DNA from: Thermanaerovibrio velox DSM 12556
GTDB lineage: Bacteria > Synergistota > Synergistia > Synergistales > Synergistaceae
Direction: 5' to 3'
Assembly (NCBI RefSeq): GCF_000237825.1
Contig: NZ_CM001377.1
Location: forward strand, 744,001 to 808,000
DNA: 64,000 bases
The position numbers and the translations under genes were made by a program. Each line of letters opens with the position of its first letter. Within the stretch, counting starts at the first letter, position 1. The notes beneath the pieces were generated by a model. That model saw nothing but the letters and a program-made list of their open reading frames with translations, did not search any database and was not told where the DNA came from. Below are positions 4,555 to 58,756 of this stretch, piece by piece.

Positions 4555-4595
4555 GAGGATTTTTTATTTCTTATTAAGCTTTGGAGGTATATACA

Positions 4596-5423
4596 GTGTT
4601 CTGGCCCAGCCTTAGGTGGCAGGACTTACTGGACATATTCATAATCGCGTTTGTGGTTTACAAGCTCCTGCTTTTGGTGGTTGGTACCCGGGCGGTTCAG
4701 CTCTTGAGGGGGCTTATGGTGCTTGGCATAACTGCGGCATTAGCCAACCTGTTAGAGCTCAAGGCTCTTACCTGGGTGCTATCTAGGTTTTTCCAGGCGT
4801 TGCTCATAGTCATACCGGTGCTTTTTCAGCCGGAGCTTAGGCGGGTTTTGGAGGAGCTTGGCAGGGGGCATCTTTGGAGGATCCAGAAGGGGAAGGAGAA
4901 GCTGGAAACCTTGGCGGATGAGGTTTTAAGGGCGCTTTTGTACCTTCAGAGCAAGAGGATCGGGGCGCTTTTAGTCCTTCAACGTCAGACCGGGCTGAAG
5001 GAGGTGTGGAGGTCTGCGGTTCCCATAAAGGCGCAGCCCTCTCAGGAGCTTTTGGTATCCCTGTTTTGGCCTGGGAACCCGCTTCACGATGGGGCGGTTA
5101 TATTAGACAGGAACAGCGTGATAGCCGCATCTTGCTATCTCCCCCTGACCGAGAAGAGCGATCTCTCCCGTTGGTACGGTACGAGGCACAGGGCAGCCCT
5201 GGGGGTTACGGAGATATCTGATGCGTTGGCGTTGGTCGTGTCTGAGGAGAGGGGAGAGATTTCCCTGGCGGTTAACGGTAGGATATCGAACCCCCTCAAC
5301 GAGGAGCAGCTTCGCAAGCTGCTGTTGCACTACTTTAGAGGGAAAGATGGATACCGTTCATTTTGGGATCGTTTCCGGGACAGCCTGATCGAGGAGGATT
5401 CGGTGATCGATTATGATGACTAG
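4596..5423 (+). CDS. cdaA: diadenylate cyclase CdaA
   Basis: Makes cyclic di-AMP from two ATP at the membrane. The N-terminal 85 or so residues hold three hydrophobic helices, followed by the DAC domain. The two catalytic motifs are present: DGA (in PLHDGAVI, near residue 164) and RHR (in GTRHRAALG, near 195). I chose GTG at 4596 because GGAGGT lies 8 bases upstream; the earlier TTG at 4581 overlaps that site. The frame overlaps cdaR by 11 bases and glmM follows, which is the conserved cdaA-cdaR-glmM operon of Firmicutes, where CdaR and GlmM modulate cyclase activity. Confidence 0.96.
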   Translation: MFWPSLRWQDLLDIFIIAFVVYKLLLLVVGTRAVQLLRGLMVLGITAALANLLELKALTWVLSRFFQALLIVIPVLFQPELRRVLEELGRGHLWRIQKGKEKLETLADEVLRALLYLQSKRIGALLVLQRQTGLKEVWRSAVPIKAQPSQELLVSLFWPGNPLHDGAVILDRNSVIAASCYLPLTEKSDLSRWYGTRHRAALGVTEISDALALVVSEERGEISLAVNGRISNPLNEEQLRKLLLHYFRGKDGYRSFWDRFRDSLIEEDSVIDYDD

Positions 5424-6639
5424 GCGGGGAAGGGTTAAGCAATGGATATATTCCAGACTTTCCCTACAGCTCCTCTCCTTCCTCATAGCGGTGGTGATTT
5501 GGTTCTTCGTATCATGGGATCACAGTACGAAGGGCTACAGGCCTGTGACCCTTCCTTTGGAGGTGGTGGGAGCTTCGAGGGACCTCTCGGTGGAGGTTAA
5601 GGAGAGCTCGGTGGAGGCAAAGTTCTTTGGGGACATAGGTTTGCTATCTGACATGGATCCCTCATCCTTGAGTGTGAGGGTTGATGTAACCGGTCTTCCC
5701 CCGGGCACTTACAAGCTGGTGCCCCGCATTGAGCTGCCAAAGGGGGTTGAGTCTGTGACTTTCAAGCCCCAGTATGTGACGGTAGTGCTGCACAGGAGGT
5801 CTGTGAGGGATGTGCCGGTTAGAGTTGACTTTGGCAAGGACTTTCCGCGGGAAGCGAAGGTGTCTGGTGTAACGGTGACGCCTAGGTATGTATCGGTTCA
5901 GGGGACTGAGGAGCAGGTCCGGGGAGTGGATCATGCAAGGGTACAGGTTACTTATCAGGCCTTTTCAGAGGGGCGTAGGGTTTTCCCGGTGGAGTTGGTC
6001 TTTAGGAAGGATTACTCCTTGGGCAGGGATTTGGATTTTAATCCCAAAGAGGTGACTTTGGACATGCCCATCTCCTCTGATAAAATTATTGGCCGTGTGC
6101 CCCTTAGGGCCTCGGTGGAGGGTATGCCGGGTTGGGGTTTTGTGGTGGACTCGGTTAACGTGATCCCTGAGGCCGTGATGGTTCAGGGTACCCCCGAGGC
6201 CATAGAGCAGTTGAAGGTAATAGACCTTCCTCCGGTTAACGTTGAGGGAGCCCAGCAGGATTTTTCAGCCTGGGTGCCGGTGAGATCTCCCGTGGACGGT
6301 GTTGTAGTTCTAGGTGGTGGGCTGGCCCAGGTGCATGTTAAGCTTTCCCATCGTTCGTCTAAGAGGGTCATCAGGGGTGTGCCCGTGAAGTTAAGGGGGG
6401 TCGATGTGGATAAGGGTTGGGTGTTATCCCCCGCGGAAGTTGACGTTACCGTGGAGATTTCTTCGAAGGAAGGCATTCCATCTGAGGCACCTCCGTCGGA
6501 ATTGGTGGAGGCCTATGTGGATGTAAGCAACGTGGTGACCAGCAGGATAACCCTTCCGGTGCTGGTGAAACCCAAGAGGGAATCTGTGGTTGTGATTTCG
6601 GTGGATCCACCGAGGGTGCAGCTGCAGGAGAAGAGATGA
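5413..6639 (+). CDS. cdaR: CdaR, YbbR-domain regulator of CdaA
   Basis: The 408-residue protein has a short basic N-terminus, one membrane helix at about residues 13-32 (LLSFLIAVVIWFFV) and then an extracytoplasmic region made of repeated YbbR domains. The repeated pattern V-x-V-x-G then PxxV-x-V-x-G is visible (VSGVTVTPRYVSVQGTEEQV near 153 and a second copy with VIPEAVMVQGTPEAI near 250). In Firmicutes CdaR binds CdaA and alters c-di-AMP output. It begins inside the end of cdaA, so translation is coupled. The second membrane-proximal repeats are less regular. Confidence 0.9.
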   Translation: MMTRRGRVKQWIYSRLSLQLLSFLIAVVIWFFVSWDHSTKGYRPVTLPLEVVGASRDLSVEVKESSVEAKFFGDIGLLSDMDPSSLSVRVDVTGLPPGTYKLVPRIELPKGVESVTFKPQYVTVVLHRRSVRDVPVRVDFGKDFPREAKVSGVTVTPRYVSVQGTEEQVRGVDHARVQVTYQAFSEGRRVFPVELVFRKDYSLGRDLDFNPKEVTLDMPISSDKIIGRVPLRASVEGMPGWGFVVDSVNVIPEAVMVQGTPEAIEQLKVIDLPPVNVEGAQQDFSAWVPVRSPVDGVVVLGGGLAQVHVKLSHRSSKRVIRGVPVKLRGVDVDKGWVLSPAEVDVTVEISSKEGIPSEAPPSELVEAYVDVSNVVTSRITLPVLVKPKRESVVVISVDPPRVQLQEKR

Positions 6640-6659: not shown

Positions 6660-8009
6660 TTGTCCGAGAAGATGGCGAAGAGGATGTACTTTGGCACCGA
6701 CGGGGTAAGGGATGTGGCTAACCGGGGTGTCATGACCCCTGAGATGGCTACGCGGCTTGGGGTCGCTTACGTCAGGTTTCTCAAAAGCCGAGGGGTTGAT
6801 GCCCCAAAGGTGATAGTTTGCAGGGATACTAGGGCCTCGGGGCAGATGTTGGAGTTAGCCCTTGGGGCGGGGATGATGTCGATGGGAGCTACGGTTGTAT
6901 CCGGGGGTGTGTTGCCCACCCCAGGGGTGAGCTTTTTGCTTCGGAATGGAACGGCTGACGGGGGTGCGGTGGTCAGTGCGTCGCACAATCCCGCGGAGTA
7001 CAACGGCATAAAGTTCTTTGGCCCCGATGGGCAGAAGCTTTCCGATGAGGAGGAGGCTGCCATAGAGGGCTTTTTGGAGTTTGAGCCCCATCATCGCCCA
7101 GCGGGGCTTGGGATGGGGGTTTATAGTGAGACCTTGGAGTTCAGGGATCAATACTCCCAGTGGCTTTCATCCTGCTACGACGGGGCGAGCCCCGTTAAGG
7201 GTATCGTTGTTGATTGTGCTAATGGTGCGATAGGGCCGGTTGTGGAAAGGGTGTTTGCCTCCTGGGAGCCCCGGATTATCTGGGCTGAACCGGATGGTAC
7301 CAACATAAACCGCTCATGTGGGGTAATGCACATGGAGAGCCTGGCTGAGGCGGTGGTCAAGAGCGGGGCCCCCTTGGGAGTGGCGTTTGACGGGGATGCG
7401 GATCGCACCCTGCTTTGTGATCCTAAGGGCAGGGTGATAGACGGGGATCTGATGCTTTGGGTGCTAGCCAGGTGGTTGAAGTTAAGGGGTGGGCTTGGCA
7501 GCGGCGTGGTGGCCACGGTGATGAGCAACATGGCCCTGGAGGAGAATCTAGGCTCCGAGGGTATAAAGCTGTTCCGTTGTCCCGTGGGAGACAGATATGT
7601 ATTGGAGACCATGGTGCGGGAGGGGGCCATGTTGGGGGGGGAACAGTCGGGGCATGTGATTGTGAAACCCTGGGTTGAGAGTGGTGATGGTCTGTGCACC
7701 GCGCTGCTGTTCATTAGGGCCTGCGAGGAGTTGGGGGAGAGCTTTGATGGTTTGTGCGATCGTTTTGAGCGGTATCCCCAGAGGTTGATAAATTTTAGGG
7801 TTAAGGACAGGGATGGGGTGTTGAATTCCCATGAGCTTGCCGCTGCGGTGAGGTCCGCCGAGGAGATCATAGGCCGATGGGGAAGGGTGTTTGTGAGGCC
7901 CTCCGGCACGGAGCCCCTGATAAGGGTGCTCCTCGAGGCGAAGGATCCCAGCCGATTGGAATCCGCGAGCGCCGTGTTCTCCGAGGTTATGGGCAAGCTT
8001 ATTGGCTAG
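6660..8009 (+). CDS. glmM: phosphoglucosamine mutase
   Basis: Interconverts glucosamine-6-phosphate and glucosamine-1-phosphate, the second step towards UDP-GlcNAc. The 449 residues match the family: YFGTDGVRD near 9, the phosphoserine loop SASHNPAEYNGIKFFG near 106-121, the metal loop DGDADR near 243 and the phosphate-binding RPSGTEPLIRVL near the C-terminus. The TTG start has GGAG 9 bases upstream; an in-frame ATG lies four codons further on. It completes the cdaA-cdaR-glmM operon, and the product feeds GlmU encoded 6 kb downstream. Confidence 0.97.
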   Translation: MSEKMAKRMYFGTDGVRDVANRGVMTPEMATRLGVAYVRFLKSRGVDAPKVIVCRDTRASGQMLELALGAGMMSMGATVVSGGVLPTPGVSFLLRNGTADGGAVVSASHNPAEYNGIKFFGPDGQKLSDEEEAAIEGFLEFEPHHRPAGLGMGVYSETLEFRDQYSQWLSSCYDGASPVKGIVVDCANGAIGPVVERVFASWEPRIIWAEPDGTNINRSCGVMHMESLAEAVVKSGAPLGVAFDGDADRTLLCDPKGRVIDGDLMLWVLARWLKLRGGLGSGVVATVMSNMALEENLGSEGIKLFRCPVGDRYVLETMVREGAMLGGEQSGHVIVKPWVESGDGLCTALLFIRACEELGESFDGLCDRFERYPQRLINFRVKDRDGVLNSHELAAAVRSAEEIIGRWGRVFVRPSGTEPLIRVLLEAKDPSRLESASAVFSEVMGKLIG

Positions 8010-8094: not shown

Positions 8095-8973
8095 TTGAGC
8101 GATTCTAGCGTGCTTCGCCACTGTCTTTTCCCCGTAGCTGGTCTTGGTACTCGTTTCCTGCCCGCCACTAAGGAGACGCCGAAGGAGATGCTGCCGCTTA
8201 TAGACAAGCCGCTCATTCACTACGGGGTTGAGGAGGCGTGTGGGGCCGGTTGTAGGGACATAGTGTTCGTGACCGGTAGGGGGAAGAGGTCCATAGAGGA
8301 TTACTTCGATAGATCCCCTGACTTGGAGGCCCTGTTGGAGTCCCGGGGTAAGGCTGATCTTGCGGACTTGGTTAGGGGTATAAGCGAGATGGCCCGATTT
8401 TCTTACGTGCGGCAGTCGGAGCCCCTTGGCCTTGGTCATGCGGTCCTCTGCGGCAGGACCTGTTGTAACGGTGATTACTTTGGGGTGATCCTTCCCGATG
8501 ACGTTATAGTCTCGGATGAACCGGTTCTAGCACAGCTGGATAGGGTGCGTAGGGCCTTCGGTGGCTCTGTGCTTGCCTTGGAGGAGGTATCTAAGGAGGA
8601 TACCGCGCGGTATGGTATAGTGGATGCCGAGGACCTGGGGGATGGGGTGTTCCGTATAAGGGACATGGTGGAGAAACCGAATCCAGAGGATGCGCCGAGT
8701 CGGCTTGCCATAATGGGACGTTACGTCCTTTCCAGCTCGGTCTTCGACCACCTTGAGAGGGTTGCGCCGGGGTCTGGAGGGGAGATACAGCTGACCGATG
8801 GTCTGAAATCCCTTTTGAGGGATGAGCCGGTGTACGGCTATCTTTACAGGGGTGAGAGATTGGATTGCGGGACCAAGGAGGGATGGCTTAGGGCTACCGT
8901 GACCATGGCGGTTCGTGATGAGCGGTTGCGGGACATAGTGGTGGAGGTCCTTGAGAAGGAGGGGGTGATTTAG
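8095..8973 (+). CDS. galU: UTP-glucose-1-phosphate uridylyltransferase
   Basis: Makes UDP-glucose from UTP and glucose-1-phosphate for envelope polysaccharides. The 292 residues carry FPVAGLGTRFLPATKETPKE near residue 11, the nucleotide-binding signature of bacterial GalU, with KPLIHYGVEEA after it and the EKPNPEDAPS block near 191. The family length is normal. The start TTG at 8095 is the first in frame and lies 10 bases after a GGGGGTG stretch. It is separated from glmM by 85 bases and from glmS by the ribozyme leader. Confidence 0.96.
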   Translation: MSDSSVLRHCLFPVAGLGTRFLPATKETPKEMLPLIDKPLIHYGVEEACGAGCRDIVFVTGRGKRSIEDYFDRSPDLEALLESRGKADLADLVRGISEMARFSYVRQSEPLGLGHAVLCGRTCCNGDYFGVILPDDVIVSDEPVLAQLDRVRRAFGGSVLALEEVSKEDTARYGIVDAEDLGDGVFRIRDMVEKPNPEDAPSRLAIMGRYVLSSSVFDHLERVAPGSGGEIQLTDGLKSLLRDEPVYGYLYRGERLDCGTKEGWLRATVTMAVRDERLRDIVVEVLEKEGVI

Positions 8974-9015
8974 ATGTAGGGGGTTTTTTACATCGGTTTG
9001 CGTTAAAGGGGGTTA

Positions 9016-9153
9016 AGCGCCTGATCCCCGCGTTAGTTTTAACGAGGGGATGACGAGGACGGGGTTTATCGATATTTCGGCGGATGCCCCGGGGTCCTGT
9101 GGGGGGCCCTGAATCGGGACCATAAATCCCCGGAGCAATCCGGGGGACAAAGG
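9016..9153 (+). ncRNA. glmS ribozyme (glucosamine-6-phosphate riboswitch)
   Basis: The leader of glmS matches the glmS self-cleaving ribozyme along its length. The cleavage site A|GCGCC lies at 9016/9017. The conserved core runs from GACGAGG at 9052 through GGGTTTATCGA and TTCGGCGG to TGCCCC at 9090. Stems fit the known fold: TCCCC (9025) pairs with GGGGA (9046), CGGGG with CCCCG, GTCC...GGGAC forms the next stem, and CCCCGGA-GCAA-TCCGGGG forms the last, followed by GGACAAAGG. In known members GlcN6P acts as the cleavage cofactor and the cut mRNA is degraded, lowering GlmS. Confidence 0.95.
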
Positions 9154-9204
9154 GTCTCGAACCCGCGTTTAGGTTGGTTTTTGATTGGAAGGAGAAATGA
9201 TCTT

Positions 9205-11031
9205 ATGTGCGGTGTGGTCGGGTATGTGGGGCCCCGCAATGCTGTTGGTGTGTTGCTTGACGGTCTTAGACGTTTGGAGTACCGGGGTTACGACTCAGCG
9301 GGGCTTGCGGTTCACGATGGTGTGAACATAAAGGTGGTTAAGGACGTTGGCAAGGTATCAGACCTCGCGTCCCGGGTGGAGGGCATGAATCTGGAGGGTG
9401 GACTTGGGGTTGGACATACCCGATGGGCCACCCACGGGGATGTGACCGGAGAGAACGCCCATCCGCACGTGGATTCGGATGGAAGGTTTGTGTTGGTGCA
9501 TAACGGCATAGTTGAGAACTACCTTGACATAAAGGACCAGCTTGAGCGGGAAGGGATTTCTTTCGTATCCCAGACGGACTCCGAGGTGATAGTTCAGCTC
9601 CTTTCCAAGATCTACAATGGGGACATGGTATCCAGCCTTGTGGAGATCCAGCGTCGTTTGGAGGGGTCATATGCGTTGGTGATCCTCAACAGGGAGGACC
9701 CCAATGGGTTTTACTGCGTGAGAAAGGGTTCTCCGTTGGTCCTTGGGGTAGCCGAGGTAGAGGGCTTGTGCGCCTCGGACGTGCCTCCTCTGCTTCCATT
9801 TACAAAAGATGTGATCTACATGGATGAGGGGGATATCGCGGAGGTTCGTGGGGGAGCTATCCGCCTTTGGGACAAGGATGGACGGCCTTTGGAGAGGGCG
9901 CCCCAGCGGGTTGACTGGGACGTTTCGATGTCGGAGAAGGACGGCTACCCTCACTACATGGCCAAGGAGATTCACGAACAGGGGGCGGTCTTGAGGTCTA
10001 CTTTAAAGGGCCGACTTCTGGAGGGTTCTGTTGACCTGGGAGATGGGGTTAACTGGACGCCGGATTTCCTTGGTTCCCTTAGACGCATTCACCTGGTGGC
10101 CTGTGGAACTTCCTACTACGCATGCCTTGTTGCAGAGCGGGTCCTTGAAAGGTGGACCACTTTGGACGTTAAGGTAGATATAGCTTCTGAGTACCGCTAT
10201 CGGGATGTCAGGATAGGAGCTGATACCCTGGCGGTGTTTGTGTCCCAGTCCGGGGAGACCGCAGATACCCTTGCAGCCCAGAGAAAGGTGAGGGCGATGG
10301 GTGGTCGTTGCCTTGGGATAACCAATGTGAGGGGGTCTACCCTTGCGAGGGAGGTGCACGATCTCCTTCTCTTGAAGGCCGGTCCTGAGATAGGTGTGGC
10401 GGCTACCAAGACCTTCATGGGGCAGCTTGGCGCTCTGTACCTCCTGGCCCTTAAGCTCGGCTGGGACAGGGGGGATTTAAACCCTGCTGAGGCGGAGCGG
10501 TTGGCTTCCATCCTGCTTAAGCTCCCCTATGAGGTTGAGAGGGTCCTTGAGCGGGAATCGGAGGTTAAGAAGGCGGCGGAGACTTTCTTTGGATTTGATA
10601 ACTTCTTGTTCCTGGGCAGGGGGTTCTCCTATCCTATAGCCATGGAGGGGGCCCTGAAGCTCAAGGAGATATCCTACGTTCACGCGGAGGCCTATGCGGC
10701 AGGGGAGATGAAGCACGGCCCGATAGCCCTGCTGGAGCCCAATGTGCCGGTCATGGTGGTGATCCCCAAGGACGGGTTATACGAGAAGACCTTGTCCAAC
10801 GTCCAGGAGGCCAGGGCGAGGCGCTCCCCCGTGGTTGCGGTGGCTTCGGATGGAGATGACCTTATATGCCAGATGGCGGACACGGTGATCAGAATACCAA
10901 GGTGTGATGAGTGTTTCTCCCCGTTCCTCTCCGTGATACCGCTTCAGATGTTCGCCTATCACGTGGCCCTCCTGAGGGGGCGGGAGATAGACCAGCCTAG
11001 AAATTTGGCCAAGAGCGTTACGGTGGAGTAG
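9205..11031 (+). CDS. glmS: glucosamine-fructose-6-phosphate aminotransferase (isomerising)
   Basis: Forms glucosamine-6-phosphate from fructose-6-phosphate and glutamine. The start is ATG at 9205 because the N-terminal cysteine right after Met (MCGVVGYVG) is the catalytic nucleophile of the class II amidotransferase; GGAAGGAGAA lies 9 bases upstream. Residues 1-230 are the glutaminase domain with HTRWATHG near 71, and residues 280-608 hold two SIS sugar-isomerase domains with CGTSYYA and SQSGETADT. The C-terminus KSVTVE is the canonical ending. Controlled by the ribozyme in its leader. Confidence 0.98.
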   Translation: MCGVVGYVGPRNAVGVLLDGLRRLEYRGYDSAGLAVHDGVNIKVVKDVGKVSDLASRVEGMNLEGGLGVGHTRWATHGDVTGENAHPHVDSDGRFVLVHNGIVENYLDIKDQLEREGISFVSQTDSEVIVQLLSKIYNGDMVSSLVEIQRRLEGSYALVILNREDPNGFYCVRKGSPLVLGVAEVEGLCASDVPPLLPFTKDVIYMDEGDIAEVRGGAIRLWDKDGRPLERAPQRVDWDVSMSEKDGYPHYMAKEIHEQGAVLRSTLKGRLLEGSVDLGDGVNWTPDFLGSLRRIHLVACGTSYYACLVAERVLERWTTLDVKVDIASEYRYRDVRIGADTLAVFVSQSGETADTLAAQRKVRAMGGRCLGITNVRGSTLAREVHDLLLLKAGPEIGVAATKTFMGQLGALYLLALKLGWDRGDLNPAEAERLASILLKLPYEVERVLERESEVKKAAETFFGFDNFLFLGRGFSYPIAMEGALKLKEISYVHAEAYAAGEMKHGPIALLEPNVPVMVVIPKDGLYEKTLSNVQEARARRSPVVAVASDGDDLICQMADTVIRIPRCDECFSPFLSVIPLQMFAYHVALLRGREIDQPRNLAKSVTVE

Positions 11032-14004: not shown

Positions 14005-15390
14005 GTGGATCCTTTGAGTGCTGGCTTGGTGGGTGGCCTGGTTTTAGCAGCTGGCAAGGGGACGAGGCTTAAGAGCAGCACGCCCAAGGCTCTCTTCCCG
14101 ATCCTTGGTGAGCCCCTGGTTTACTATCCCCTTAGGGCCATGGAGGAGAGCGGCGTTTCCGCCATGTGCGTGGTGGTGGGCCATGAAGGGGAGGCGGTGG
14201 CGTCCTGCGTTAGGGATTTGGGTTTCGAGGCCTCCGTTGCCTTTCAGTCTCCCATGCTTGGTACGGCCCATGCGGTCATGTGTGCCAGGGATTGGTGGAA
14301 GGAGCTTAAGCATCTCCTGGTTTTGCCTGTGGATGCCCCCATGTTGTCGGGGGAGACTTTAAGGGGCTTGATCGACAGTCATCTATCCCAGGGTAACTTG
14401 TGTACCCTCCTTGCCTTTGAGGCGGGGGACCCTTCTGGATATGGAAGGGTGATACGCTCTGGAGGGGCGGTCCGCATCGTGGAGGAGAAGGATGCCTCTC
14501 CGGAGGAGAAAGCGGTGAGGCTTTGTAACGGCGGGGTATATGTGTTCGATGTGGAGGCCCTGGATGGGGTGTTGGAGAGGCTGGATAATAGAAATGCCCA
14601 AGGGGAGTACTACCTCCCGGATGCGGTTTCGCTGTTATCTCAGATGGGATCCATCGGGGTCTTGTCCGTTTGTGAGGATGAGCTTCGGGGTATAAACGAT
14701 CCCTTGCAGTACGCTCAGCTGTCTGAGCTGTTGAGGCTTAGGGTACTCACTCGTTGGTTGTCGTTGGGGCTTAAGTGTTTGGACCTCAACTCCGTGTGGA
14801 TAGGCCCCCGGGTTGAGATCGGCCATGACGTCTGGATAGAGCAGGGGGTTACGGTCATAGGAAGGTCTCGCATAGGAGACTCCTGTCGTATAGGGGCCAT
14901 GTCATGGCTTAACCACGTGGAGATGGGGAGCCGATGCCGGGTCTTGGGCAACGTGAGGATGGAGTCTTCAAAGCTAGGCGATGGGGTGCAGGTGGGGCCG
15001 TTTGCTTTTCTTAGGGATGGGGTTATTATGGAAGACGGTTCCCTGGCGGGCCGTTTTGTTGAGATAAAGAAGAGCCGGATTGGTGAGGGCAGCAAGGTGC
15101 CTCACCTGTCCTATGTTGGGGATGCTTCAATAGGCAGGGATACCAATATAGGGGCTGGCGCCATAACTTGCAACTACGACGGGGTATCAAAGAACCCTAC
15201 GATCATAGGGGACAACTGTTTCATTGGCAGCGATACCATGTTGGTTGCGCCGGTCAGCGTGGGGGATGGGGCTACGACTGCTGCTGGTTCCGTGATAACC
15301 CAGGACGTGCCTGCTGGTTCTCTGGGGGTTGCCAGGGCAAGGCAGAGGAACGTGGAGGGATGGAGCCGGCGGAGGCATAAAAAAGATTGA
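14005..15390 (+). CDS. glmU: bifunctional UDP-GlcNAc pyrophosphorylase / GlcN1P acetyltransferase
   Basis: Acetylates glucosamine-1-phosphate and joins it to UTP to give UDP-GlcNAc. The N-terminal uridyltransferase starts with LVLAAGKGTRLKSSTPKAL and has NGGVYVFD near 172. From about residue 250 the sequence becomes the hexapeptide-repeat left-handed beta-helix, with the acetyltransferase loop GAGAITCNYDGVSKNPTIIG near 386. Length 461 is normal. GTG at 14005 is the first start; TTG at 14014, nine bases on with GAGGGTGG before it, is an equally good alternative. It follows glmM and glmS within 7 kb and heads the glmU-prs-rplY-pth-mfd run seen in many bacteria. Confidence 0.97.
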   Translation: MDPLSAGLVGGLVLAAGKGTRLKSSTPKALFPILGEPLVYYPLRAMEESGVSAMCVVVGHEGEAVASCVRDLGFEASVAFQSPMLGTAHAVMCARDWWKELKHLLVLPVDAPMLSGETLRGLIDSHLSQGNLCTLLAFEAGDPSGYGRVIRSGGAVRIVEEKDASPEEKAVRLCNGGVYVFDVEALDGVLERLDNRNAQGEYYLPDAVSLLSQMGSIGVLSVCEDELRGINDPLQYAQLSELLRLRVLTRWLSLGLKCLDLNSVWIGPRVEIGHDVWIEQGVTVIGRSRIGDSCRIGAMSWLNHVEMGSRCRVLGNVRMESSKLGDGVQVGPFAFLRDGVIMEDGSLAGRFVEIKKSRIGEGSKVPHLSYVGDASIGRDTNIGAGAITCNYDGVSKNPTIIGDNCFIGSDTMLVAPVSVGDGATTAAGSVITQDVPAGSLGVARARQRNVEGWSRRRHKKD

Positions 15391-44503: not shown

Positions 44504-46178
44504 ATGGCGGATACCAAGCACATGCGGCTGGGAGACATCTTGATACAGGCCGGCGTTTTGACCGAGAGCACTTTGAACGCAGCCCTTAAGGAGCAGAAGG
44601 TAAGCTCCATGCGGCTTGGTGAAATATTAGTTAAAAATAGGCTGGGTCTCGGAGAAGCATTTGGCGGAGGCCCTGAGCCGGCAGCTGAAGGTCCCCTTGG
44701 TATCTCTTGCTAGGTACAAGCCCACCCCTGAGGTATTGAAGGTTGTCCCCGAGAGCATGGCAAGGCGCTTAGAGGTTGTGCCCTTGAGCTTGTTGGACAA
44801 TGGCAAGCTTCTTGTGGCCACTGCGGATCCCCTCAATGTCGTGGCCCTAGATGAGCTCAAGATGGTTACGGGCCGGGAGATAGAGCTCAGCATAGCTATG
44901 GTGTCCGAGATAAGGCGGGCATTTGAGCAGTTTTACCGGGTTCACACCACGTTGGAGGAAGCCATGGTAGAGGTTATGGAGGATAAGCCGGCGGACTCGT
45001 CTTTGAACCTGGTTGACGTTGGGGTGGATGATGCGCCGGTTGTGAAGCTGGTCAACTCCATAATGGAGGAGGCTGTCAAGGAGGGCACTTCCGACATTCA
45101 CATAGAGGTCTTTGAAAGGGGTGCCAGGGTTAGGTACAGGATAGACGGAGCTTTGTTCGATTCCCTTGAGTATCCCAAGAACCTGCATCCCGCGGTTTGC
45201 TCCAGGATAAAGATCATGAGCGGCATGGACATATCGGAGCGCCGCAGGCCTCAGGACGGAAGAATCCTCTTGAAGGTGGGGAACAAGAGGGTTGACCTTC
45301 GTGTCTCCTCCTTGCCGTCCATATTCGGAGAGAAGATAGTCATGCGTCTTTTGGACCAGGACAAGGCAATGGTTGGCTTGGAAAGGTTAGGGTTCAGCCC
45401 CGATGAGAGGGCCCTCCTGGAAGATATGGCCTCCCTCCCCTACGGTATCATACTTGTTACGGGCCCCACGGGAAGCGGTAAGTCTACCACCCTTTATTCC
45501 CTTCTTGAGGTCATGAACACCCCGGACGTCAACATAATCACCGTGGAGGACCCGGTGGAATATACAATGCCTGGTATTACCCAGGTTCAGGTGAACGAGA
45601 AGGCGGGGCTTACGTTTAGCGAGACCCTGCGATCAATACTCCGGCAGGACCCTGACAAGATAATGATAGGAGAGATCAGAGACCAGGAGACCGCTCAGCT
45701 GGCCATAAGGGCTGCTTTGACTGGGCACCTGGTTCTATCAACCCTGCACACCAACGATGCTCCTAGCGCCGTGGCCAGGCTTTTAGACATGGGGATACAG
45801 CCTTTTATGGTCTCCTCCGCAGTGGTTGGTGTGGTGGCTCAAAGGCTCGCCAGGAGGCTGTGCAGCTCCTGCAAGAAGGAGATGCAACTGCCCGATGCGG
45901 TGGCGAGATCCCTTGACCTGCCCCCCGGCACCAGGGTTTTCGCCCCGGTGGGGTGTGATGATTGCAGGAACACCGGCTACAAGGGGCGTACCGCCCTTTT
46001 CGAGATACTCTTGGTGGATGAGGAGATAAAGCGGGCCATTGCGGAGGGAGCTCCAGTCTATGAGATCCGAAAGTTAGCCATATCAAAGGGCATGACAACT
46101 TTAAGAAAGGCTGGAATTAAAAAGGTCTTAGATGGTATAACTAGTGTTGAAGAGATGATGTCCGAAACCATGCAGTAA
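44504..46178 (+). CDS. pilB: type IV pilus assembly ATPase PilB, interrupted by a +1 frameshift
   Basis: Hexameric ATPase that drives pilus extension. The N-terminal MshEN/T2SSE-N domain starts in one frame (HMRLGDILIQAGVLTESTLN, RLGEILV) and continues in another (LAEALSRQLKVPLVSLARY). Dropping one A from the A5 run at 44633-44637 gives RLGEILVKIGWVSEKHLAEA, the usual repeat, and 557 residues. The core has Walker A GPTGSGKSTT near 320, the Asp box, the Walker B/His boxes (IMIGEIRDQETAQLAIRAALTGHLVLSTLHTND) and a zinc-binding CSSCKKE...CDDC motif. GGAGGGG precedes the ATG. Confidence 0.94.
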
Positions 46179-56424: not shown

Positions 56425-57012
56425 AAACACTGAAAGCATTTTTTACCTTTTGAGCCGTAGAACCCCCGAGGGAAGGGGCTGAGGTGGGTTTTTTCGATCA
56501 TATTCGGTGCCCTTGTCCTAGGGGAAGCTTACGCTGGGTACCTAATAGCGGGAGCATCGTATGTATCTCCTGACACCTTGAGGAGTGCCTCCCCAGAAGT
56601 AGCCCAGAAGGATGCCATGGATGAGGTGTCATTCCAAAGGTCTTATATGGAGCTTAGGCGGTCTTCCTTGCAGACTGCACAGCTCGCTACCGCTTCCGGG
56701 ATAAACCCCTTCAGCAAGCCTCCGATGGCGGTTGAGCTTCCTCCGTTGGATACTTCTCCGGTGCTTCCTGGCGGTAGCCCCATAGCTCCTCCGCCGGAGG
56801 TCCAGCCTCCGATGGTCACCGTCAAGGCCATAATGATCTTGGGGGATAAGGCTGCGGCGGTGGCGGACATCGAAGGAGACGGGCAGGCGGTCATACTTAG
56901 AGTCGGCTCCTCCTTTGATGGTGGCAGGGGAAGGGTTGTCGGCATAAGCAACTCGGGTGTTAGGTTCCGGTGGAAGGAGAGGATATACGATGCGGCACTC
57001 CAGTCCAATTAA
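56414..57012 (+). CDS. pilP: PilP-like pilus protein, apparent 1-base deletion
   Basis: The frame to 57012 encodes WVFSIIFGALVLGEAYAGYLI (membrane helix), a Pro-rich linker and a small beta domain (VTVKAIMILGDKAAAVADIE, VGSSFDGGRGRVVGISNSGV), as in PilP/GspC proteins that dock onto the secretin. It has no start codon before the helix. GTG 56414 (MTGENTESIFYLLSRRTPEG) with GAGGTGA 6 bases upstream overlaps pilO by 11 bases, but meets a stop at 56480. Restoring one base, for instance in the C5 or G4 run at 56463-56478, joins them to 199 residues. Confidence 0.72.
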
Positions 57013-58756
57013 AGGTTGTTCTCCCAGGCTGTTTTATCCGAAGAGCTGGGTGGTCCTTAGCATATTGCTGGCGATTTTGATGTTTGGAGCCGGTCAATCC
57101 TTTGCTGCACCGGCTGATGTGGTCTCCGGGGACAAAATCCCAATGATAAGCGATGTTAAGTGCGGTCAGGGAGGTAGTGATCTTGCGGTGTTGGAGCTTA
57201 TAGGCAATATGGTGCCTGCTCCTTCCAAGACCCAGCAGGGTAAGGACGGACTTGAGATGTTCTTCCCCGCATCCCTGGAGCCGTCTTTAAGAAATGTGGT
57301 GTTTGAATATCCTCTAGTTAACTTTGTAAGTTTTCGTCCCGATGAGGGCGGGGTTTGGATGGCGGTGGGGTCATCGAAACCCGTTAAGGTTCAGTCGGTT
57401 TATGGGGCTGGGACAAGCCGTTTGGTGGTGTCCCTGGTTTCTAACCCAGAGCTTTCTCCGGTTAAGGGACCCAAGAATCCCCCTACCGTGGTGCCCCGTC
57501 TTTCTTCTGGCAAGGATCCAATAGCCCTTAGCGTTCCCGTAGATTTAGCCCTTCGGGATGTGGAGCTTAAAGACGTGTTCCGGATGCTTGGGGAGTTCAG
57601 CGGTTATAACATAATCTGCGATCCCACCGTGCCTTCTAGCCCAGTGACCCTTACCGTCAAGAGGGTACCTATGAAGGAGGTCTTCGCCTACCTCATGAGG
57701 ACCTATGACATAACCTATGCGGTGATGGGGAAAACCATCCTGGTGGGCAAGGCGGATGCGTTGGCCAAGTCCTTGGGGCAGGAGAAGACCAAGGCATTTG
57801 AGATATCTTACGGGGATATAAAGCAGATATCCGGTCAGGTGCAGACGTTGTTTGACATAACAAAGCCCATTGTGGTGGATGAGCGTCTTAGGCTTCTTTA
57901 TGTAACTGGCAGGCCGGAGCAGTTGGAGGCGGTGGCTAAGTTCCTGAGCCAGGCGGACCATCCGGGCAAGCAGGTAATGCTCCAGGCCAGGATCGTGGAG
58001 GTTAAGGACGATGGCATGAAGGAGCTGGAGTCGGTCATAAACGCGGTATATCGGTATTGGTGGTTCTCGTTCAACAGCAAGGGTGGGGTGGTTGGATATA
58101 GCCGAGTTAATGAGGCGTCTATATACAAAAATGATTCCAACCGGGTTACCAAGCCTGGTGCGGCGGATATAAGCGCCATAGCCGAGAGCGGGAACATAAG
58201 CATGATAGACGCGGGTATAAGGGCCCTTGAGACCGCGGATAAGGGCAAGGCCCTGGCAAGCCCTTCGGTTGTGGTGGCGGATGGCAAGGAGGCCAAGATA
58301 GCGCTTACGGAGAACGTTAAGTACATATCCGCCAGGGATCAGGCGGGTAACCCCACTTACTCGGAGGAGAAGGTAGGTCCATCGATGGAGTTCCTCCCCG
58401 TGGTTGGAAGAGACGGGTTCATAACCATCAAGATGACCCTTAAGACCGGAGAGATAACCAAGTACATAAAGGGAGGTTTGGGTGAGCAGGTCCCCCAGAC
58501 CAGCACCAGAGAGGTTACCTCCTACGTCAGGGTGAGGGATGGGGAGCCGTTTGTGGTGGGAGGTCTTTTCAGAAACTCTGACAAGTACTCGGAGTACAAG
58601 ATACCTGTTTTGGGGGATATCCCGCTTCTTGGGGAGCTGTTCAAGTCCAGGAGTCGGACCAAGGAGAGGGGAGAGGTGGCCATGATCGTGATCCCGCATA
58701 TACTTGATGTCCCCACTTCTCCTGTGAAGGCCTCCGATGTGAATACTTTGCAGTAA
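56990..58756 (+). CDS. pilQ: type IV pilus secretin PilQ
   Basis: Outer-membrane channel for the pilus. A signal peptide (VVLSILLAILMFGAGQSFA) is followed by an AMIN-like N-terminal part, an STN/secretin N0 domain with LRDVELKDVFRMLGEFSGYN near 184, an N1 domain, and the C-terminal secretin domain (LASPSVVVADGKEAKI, VVGGLFRNSDKYSEYKIP, VLGDIPLLGELFKS). I chose ATG 56990 (588 residues) after AAGGAGAGG; it overlaps pilP by 23 bases. A secretin implies a diderm cell. Confidence 0.95.
   Translation: MRHSSPIKGCSPRLFYPKSWVVLSILLAILMFGAGQSFAAPADVVSGDKIPMISDVKCGQGGSDLAVLELIGNMVPAPSKTQQGKDGLEMFFPASLEPSLRNVVFEYPLVNFVSFRPDEGGVWMAVGSSKPVKVQSVYGAGTSRLVVSLVSNPELSPVKGPKNPPTVVPRLSSGKDPIALSVPVDLALRDVELKDVFRMLGEFSGYNIICDPTVPSSPVTLTVKRVPMKEVFAYLMRTYDITYAVMGKTILVGKADALAKSLGQEKTKAFEISYGDIKQISGQVQTLFDITKPIVVDERLRLLYVTGRPEQLEAVAKFLSQADHPGKQVMLQARIVEVKDDGMKELESVINAVYRYWWFSFNSKGGVVGYSRVNEASIYKNDSNRVTKPGAADISAIAESGNISMIDAGIRALETADKGKALASPSVVVADGKEAKIALTENVKYISARDQAGNPTYSEEKVGPSMEFLPVVGRDGFITIKMTLKTGEITKYIKGGLGEQVPQTSTREVTSYVRVRDGEPFVVGGLFRNSDKYSEYKIPVLGDIPLLGELFKSRSRTKERGEVAMIVIPHILDVPTSPVKASDVNTLQ

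Follow-up and report, generated by a model that had tools for sequence, protein, structure and literature searches.

The glmS ribozyme of Bacillus subtilis lies ahead of glmS in a cdaA-cdaR-glmM-glmS operon (PMC6171935), and its 5'-OH cleavage product is degraded by RNase J1 (PMC3328962; PMC11780869). Together with the copies of T. tengcongensis and B. anthracis, it represents the RF00234 type, with which we compared a glmS ribozyme located in a 64,000-nt stretch of the Thermanaerovibrio velox genome (hereafter the window). In Deinococcus-Thermus, McCown et al. are said to have described in 2011 variants of this ribozyme whose core carries additional stems. The window element resembles the RF00234 type in its cleavage motif, its core, the helices P1 to P4.1 with the P3.1 pseudoknot, its position ahead of glmS, and the presence of glmM upstream. 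It differs in its GC-rich stems, and the strand entering P3 reads CCGGGG instead of the CCTCGG of the Bacillota copies compared. Like the Deinococcus-Thermus variants, it is found outside the Firmicutes; however, it fits the standard model with no large insertions.

The sequence-only reading of the window had proposed a glmS ribozyme with cleavage site, core, and stems at positions 9016–9153. The covariance model search that it had suggested bears this out: RF00234 gave a significant match of 120.7 bits (cmscan; gathering score 37), present as a single copy in the 1,880,838-base single-contig genome and covering model positions 1–167 of 167, i.e., the full length. The cleavage dinucleotide A9016/G9017 falls where that reading had placed it, and its equivalents are invariant in 24 Synergistota copies. 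The end of the proposed span was drawn too early, as the 3' strands of P4 (9154–9160) and P3.1 (~9162–9167) lie beyond 9153. The core elements ACGAGG, UCGA, UCGGCGG, and ACAAA are all present in the window and are invariant or nearly so in the 24 copies. This conserved core and the motif A/GCGCC at the cleavage site place the element in the family. The ribozyme class is already known, the window element is an ordinary glmS ribozyme, and automated annotation probably already lists it.

Table 1 Features of the ribozyme-glmS locus, in positions of the window
Feature	Position	Strand	Basis
cdaA, diadenylate cyclase	4581..5423	+	TIGR00159, 231 bits (cut-off 188.8)
ybbR (cdaR-like)	5413..6639	+	PF07949
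glmM, phosphoglucosamine mutase	6660..8009	+	TIGR01455, 458.8 bits (cut-off 447.55)
galU	8095..8973	+	TIGR01099, 335.8 bits (cut-off 326.8)
glmS ribozyme, whole Rfam match	9005..9170	+	RF00234, 120.7 bits, E 8.4e-28
Predicted self-cleavage site A/G	9016..9017	+	AAGCGCC motif aligned to RF00234
P1 hairpin	9024..9051	+	Rfam structure projected on the window; 6/8 pairs changed on both sides
Catalytic core: ACGAGG segment, P2, inner UCGA/UCGG hairpin	9052..9091	+	Core letters invariant in 24 copies
P3 stem and loop	9092..9109	+	Rfam structure; 3/6 pairs changed on both sides
P3.1 pseudoknot, 5' strand UGUGGG	9098..9103	+	Pairs with 9162–9167; read from sequence
P4 stem enclosing P4.1 (9128–9145)	9114..9160	+	13/14 pairs of both helices changed on both sides
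P3.1 pseudoknot, 3' strand CCCGCG	9162..9167	+	6/6 pairs of the helix changed on both sides in Synergistota
glmS, GlcN6P synthase, 608 aa	9205..11031	+	TIGR01135, 771 bits; NF001484, 776 bits

The structure is conserved as well. Using the Rfam projection plus the P3.1 pseudoknot on a MAFFT alignment of the 24 Synergistota copies that was based on sequence and not fitted to structure, we observed that 29 of 44 pairs had changed on both sides, with 87% of cells paired (74% in P3). The helices P1, P3, P4, P4.1, and P3.1 all covary across the copies; in a congener with CCCAC at the 3' strand of P3.1, the pairing is kept. The covariation score was 0.528 vs. 0.199 in shuffles, none of 500 of which reached the observed value, and no more than 0.28 in slid versions. 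We found no point in support of the window copy being a degraded or inactive relic, a reading that is extremely improbable given the full-length high-scoring match, the invariant core, and the covarying helices.

In the window, the genes are arranged as cdaA-ybbR-glmM-galU-ribozyme-glmS, and the ribozyme lies within the glmS 5' leader, with the glmS start 188 nt past the cleavage site. A glmU-like gene follows at 14005. Gene order and the ribozyme position ahead of glmS are the same as in the operon of B. subtilis (PMC6171935), except that most Synergistota have galU inserted. The ribozyme directly precedes glmS in the sampled ribozyme-bearing Synergistota loci, and the gene order is common across families. 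In genera g50–g51 of family f7, which we take to be Jonquetella/Pyramidobacter-like, galU is missing from the cluster. Of the Synergistota loci for which 1.5 kb or more of upstream sequence was available, 30 had both the ribozyme and an upstream glmM, two had the ribozyme alone (Acetomicrobium-type), none had glmM alone, and 36 had neither (Fisher p 3e-17, a value that ignores shared ancestry, so that related genomes enter as non-independent counts).

The galU stop codon of the window precedes the cleavage site by 43 nt. In 23 Synergistota loci this distance runs from -18 to 128 nt, with its median at 38 nt, whereas in sampled Bacillota the distance from the glmM stop to the cleavage site has a median of 129.5 nt. 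A promoter scan of positions 8800–9300, which covered sigma-70-like sites only, returned no promoter-like site, and a dedicated promoter of this type ahead of the ribozyme was rejected for this region; a promoter inside galU is an alternative possibility. In most Synergistota loci the best scores were near the shuffled mean, with 9–10 of 12 reached in L184, L185, L189, and L192. From the short galU-to-cleavage gap and the scan of the window region, we infer that the ribozyme cuts a polycistronic mRNA in Synergistota. According to this anatomy, it would act between genes of a cdaA-ybbR-glmM-galU-glmS transcript, with cleavage silencing glmS and sparing the upstream genes.

Three loci bring the ribozyme even closer to galU. 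The cleavage site lies 1 nt after the galU stop in L195 and inside the galU TAG stop in L190; in L181, a GalU frame with a non-conserved tail extends 18 nt beyond it. With the cleavage site at or inside the galU end, termination of galU translation and folding of the ribozyme could interact, and we tentatively raise the possibility that the Synergistota ribozyme is an intergenic cutter of this kind. If true, cleavage would remove the galU stop codon in one genome.

By analogy with the ribozyme family and B. subtilis, accumulated glucosamine-6-phosphate, a cell-wall sugar, would bind the preformed core and serve as cofactor for cleavage, for which the family points to A9016/G9017. The downstream glmS fragment would be left with a 5'-hydroxyl end and RNase J could degrade it, so that GlmS synthesis would fall through product feedback. 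The genome encodes an RNase J (558.7 bits, cut-off 400).

The host had been taken for a non-Firmicute diderm. This agrees with the GlmS comparison against named genomes, in which the nearest relatives all come from Synergistota (53–66% identity), with a secretin gene (56957–58756, PF00263), and with a weak LptD_N match (21.9 bits vs. a cut-off of 20.4), which fits an outer membrane. The secretin belongs to a type IV pilus cluster that begins at 44661; it had been described as being beside glmS, but is 48 kb away.

The ribozyme is widespread in this phylum. At least 63 of 188 Synergistota genomes, from at least 26 of 63 genera, exceeded the RF00234 cut-off; searches over 40 genomes scored top candidates only, so these and the following counts are lower bounds. 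Naming phyla by the depositors' record titles, we found the ribozyme in at least 165 of 249 genomes sampled around a Clostridioides genome, in at least 54 of 246 from the phylum of an Actinobacteria-titled genome, and in at least 29 of 121 from that of a Chloroflexi-titled genome. There was no match in the Acidobacteria-titled and Planctomycetota-titled phyla (0/119 each, 0/238 genomes). The control genome of Deinobacterium chartae had an RF00234 match. Synergistota have recently been grouped with Deinococcota and Thermotogota as 'DST' (PMC12640082; PMC12329446). The glmM-glmS linkage is shared by Bacillota, by Synergistota, and by some of the sampled Actinomycetota. We sought plasmid-borne copies and obtained no match, and a literature search returned no paper discussing the glmS ribozyme in Synergistota. 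The earlier suggestion that the ribozyme is unusual in such a host, bearing on transfer, was not supported, as at least one third of Synergistota genomes and two further sampled phyla carry it and the window GlmS is nested in Synergistales.

The survey also revealed several unusual loci. In L269 (G663:C40), a weak ribozyme match follows glmM in the order glmM-ribozyme-glnA-glmS, the intervening translation reading as glutamine synthetase; L270 (G519:C124) has a weak match between glmM and glmS, again with a further gene ahead of glmS and the same spacing. Two loci of the Clostridioides sample have the ribozyme ahead of a 367-aa GlmS-like frame, which in L305 was read and comprises the isomerase part only, and in L306 is known from its start and length. 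In the Chloroflexi-titled phylum, L275, L277, L278, and L280 have the ribozyme ahead of divergent GlmS-like proteins of 583–664 aa (273–347 bits vs. the window GlmS).

The sequence-only reading had also called for a tree of the ribozyme against that of glmS. In both GlmS trees (131 rows, LG+G4; 66 rows, C20 mixture), window-type Synergistales GlmS formed one clade with 100% SH-aLRT, within which most ribozyme-free Synergistales GlmS were nested; two Synergistota sequences of other classes, L200 and L211, fell outside this main clade. The ribozyme alignment, with ~155 columns, is too short to resolve a tree: the best search put the Thermanaerovibrio copies beside two Bacillota copies (98/88), but a tree with the Synergistales ribozymes in one clade fits at least equally well (lnL higher by 3.6, p-AU 0.54). 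That best tree would suit a recent move of the ribozyme, with or without glmS, from Bacillota into the window lineage, and transfer of glmS does occur in Synergistota, where a single clade of all Synergistales GlmS is rejected (p 0.0013). Nevertheless, we consider such a recent move very unlikely. The window GlmS sits firmly within the Synergistales clade, the ribozyme occurs across the genera counted above with a constant gene order across families, and forcing ribozyme-bearing Synergistales and Bacillota GlmS together against the ribozyme-free Synergistales was rejected (lnL -236, p-AU 8e-40). We are highly confident that the window element is a canonical glmS ribozyme, activated by GlcN6P, and that it came down by descent within Synergistota.

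The ribozyme-free GlmS of six sampled genomes from family f6 of Synergistota (L232, L234–L238) grouped inside Bacillota in the 131-row tree (three of the six in the 66-row tree). These sequences are likely replacements acquired by transfer without the ribozyme.

On a deeper timescale, the whole cdaA-ybbR-glmM-glmS-ribozyme cluster might have passed between Synergistota and Bacillota on the stems of the two phyla instead of being shared by ancestry. The gene order common to both phyla (PMC6171935 for B. subtilis) and the patchy occurrence of the ribozyme in every phylum where it is found are compatible with such an old transfer. We regard it as possible but the less probable course, since deep GlmS branches part the phyla and the Synergistales do not fall within Bacillota.

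Ribozyme-free Synergistota provide a further view of the cluster. In 18 such genomes, cdaA and ybbR were beside glmM in 16 and galU followed glmM in 13, while the glmM region contained a ribozyme in none (0/18). Their glmS genes are located away from the glmM cluster and have no ribozyme, and a remnant was found neither ahead of glmS nor after galU. These glmM clusters lacking both suggest that the ribozyme and glmS left the cluster together, or were never part of it in the basal lineage of G002.

Together, the spread of the glmS ribozyme in Synergistota, sampled Actinomycetota and Chloroflexota, and Deinobacterium corrects the view of this RNA, first studied in Gram-positive bacteria, as an essentially Firmicute element. 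Synergistota, in which some clusters have the ribozyme-glmS end and others lack it, offer a natural comparison. Given the wide distribution and the glmM-glmS linkage across phyla, an early origin of the GlcN6P RNA feedback loop becomes a testable hypothesis.
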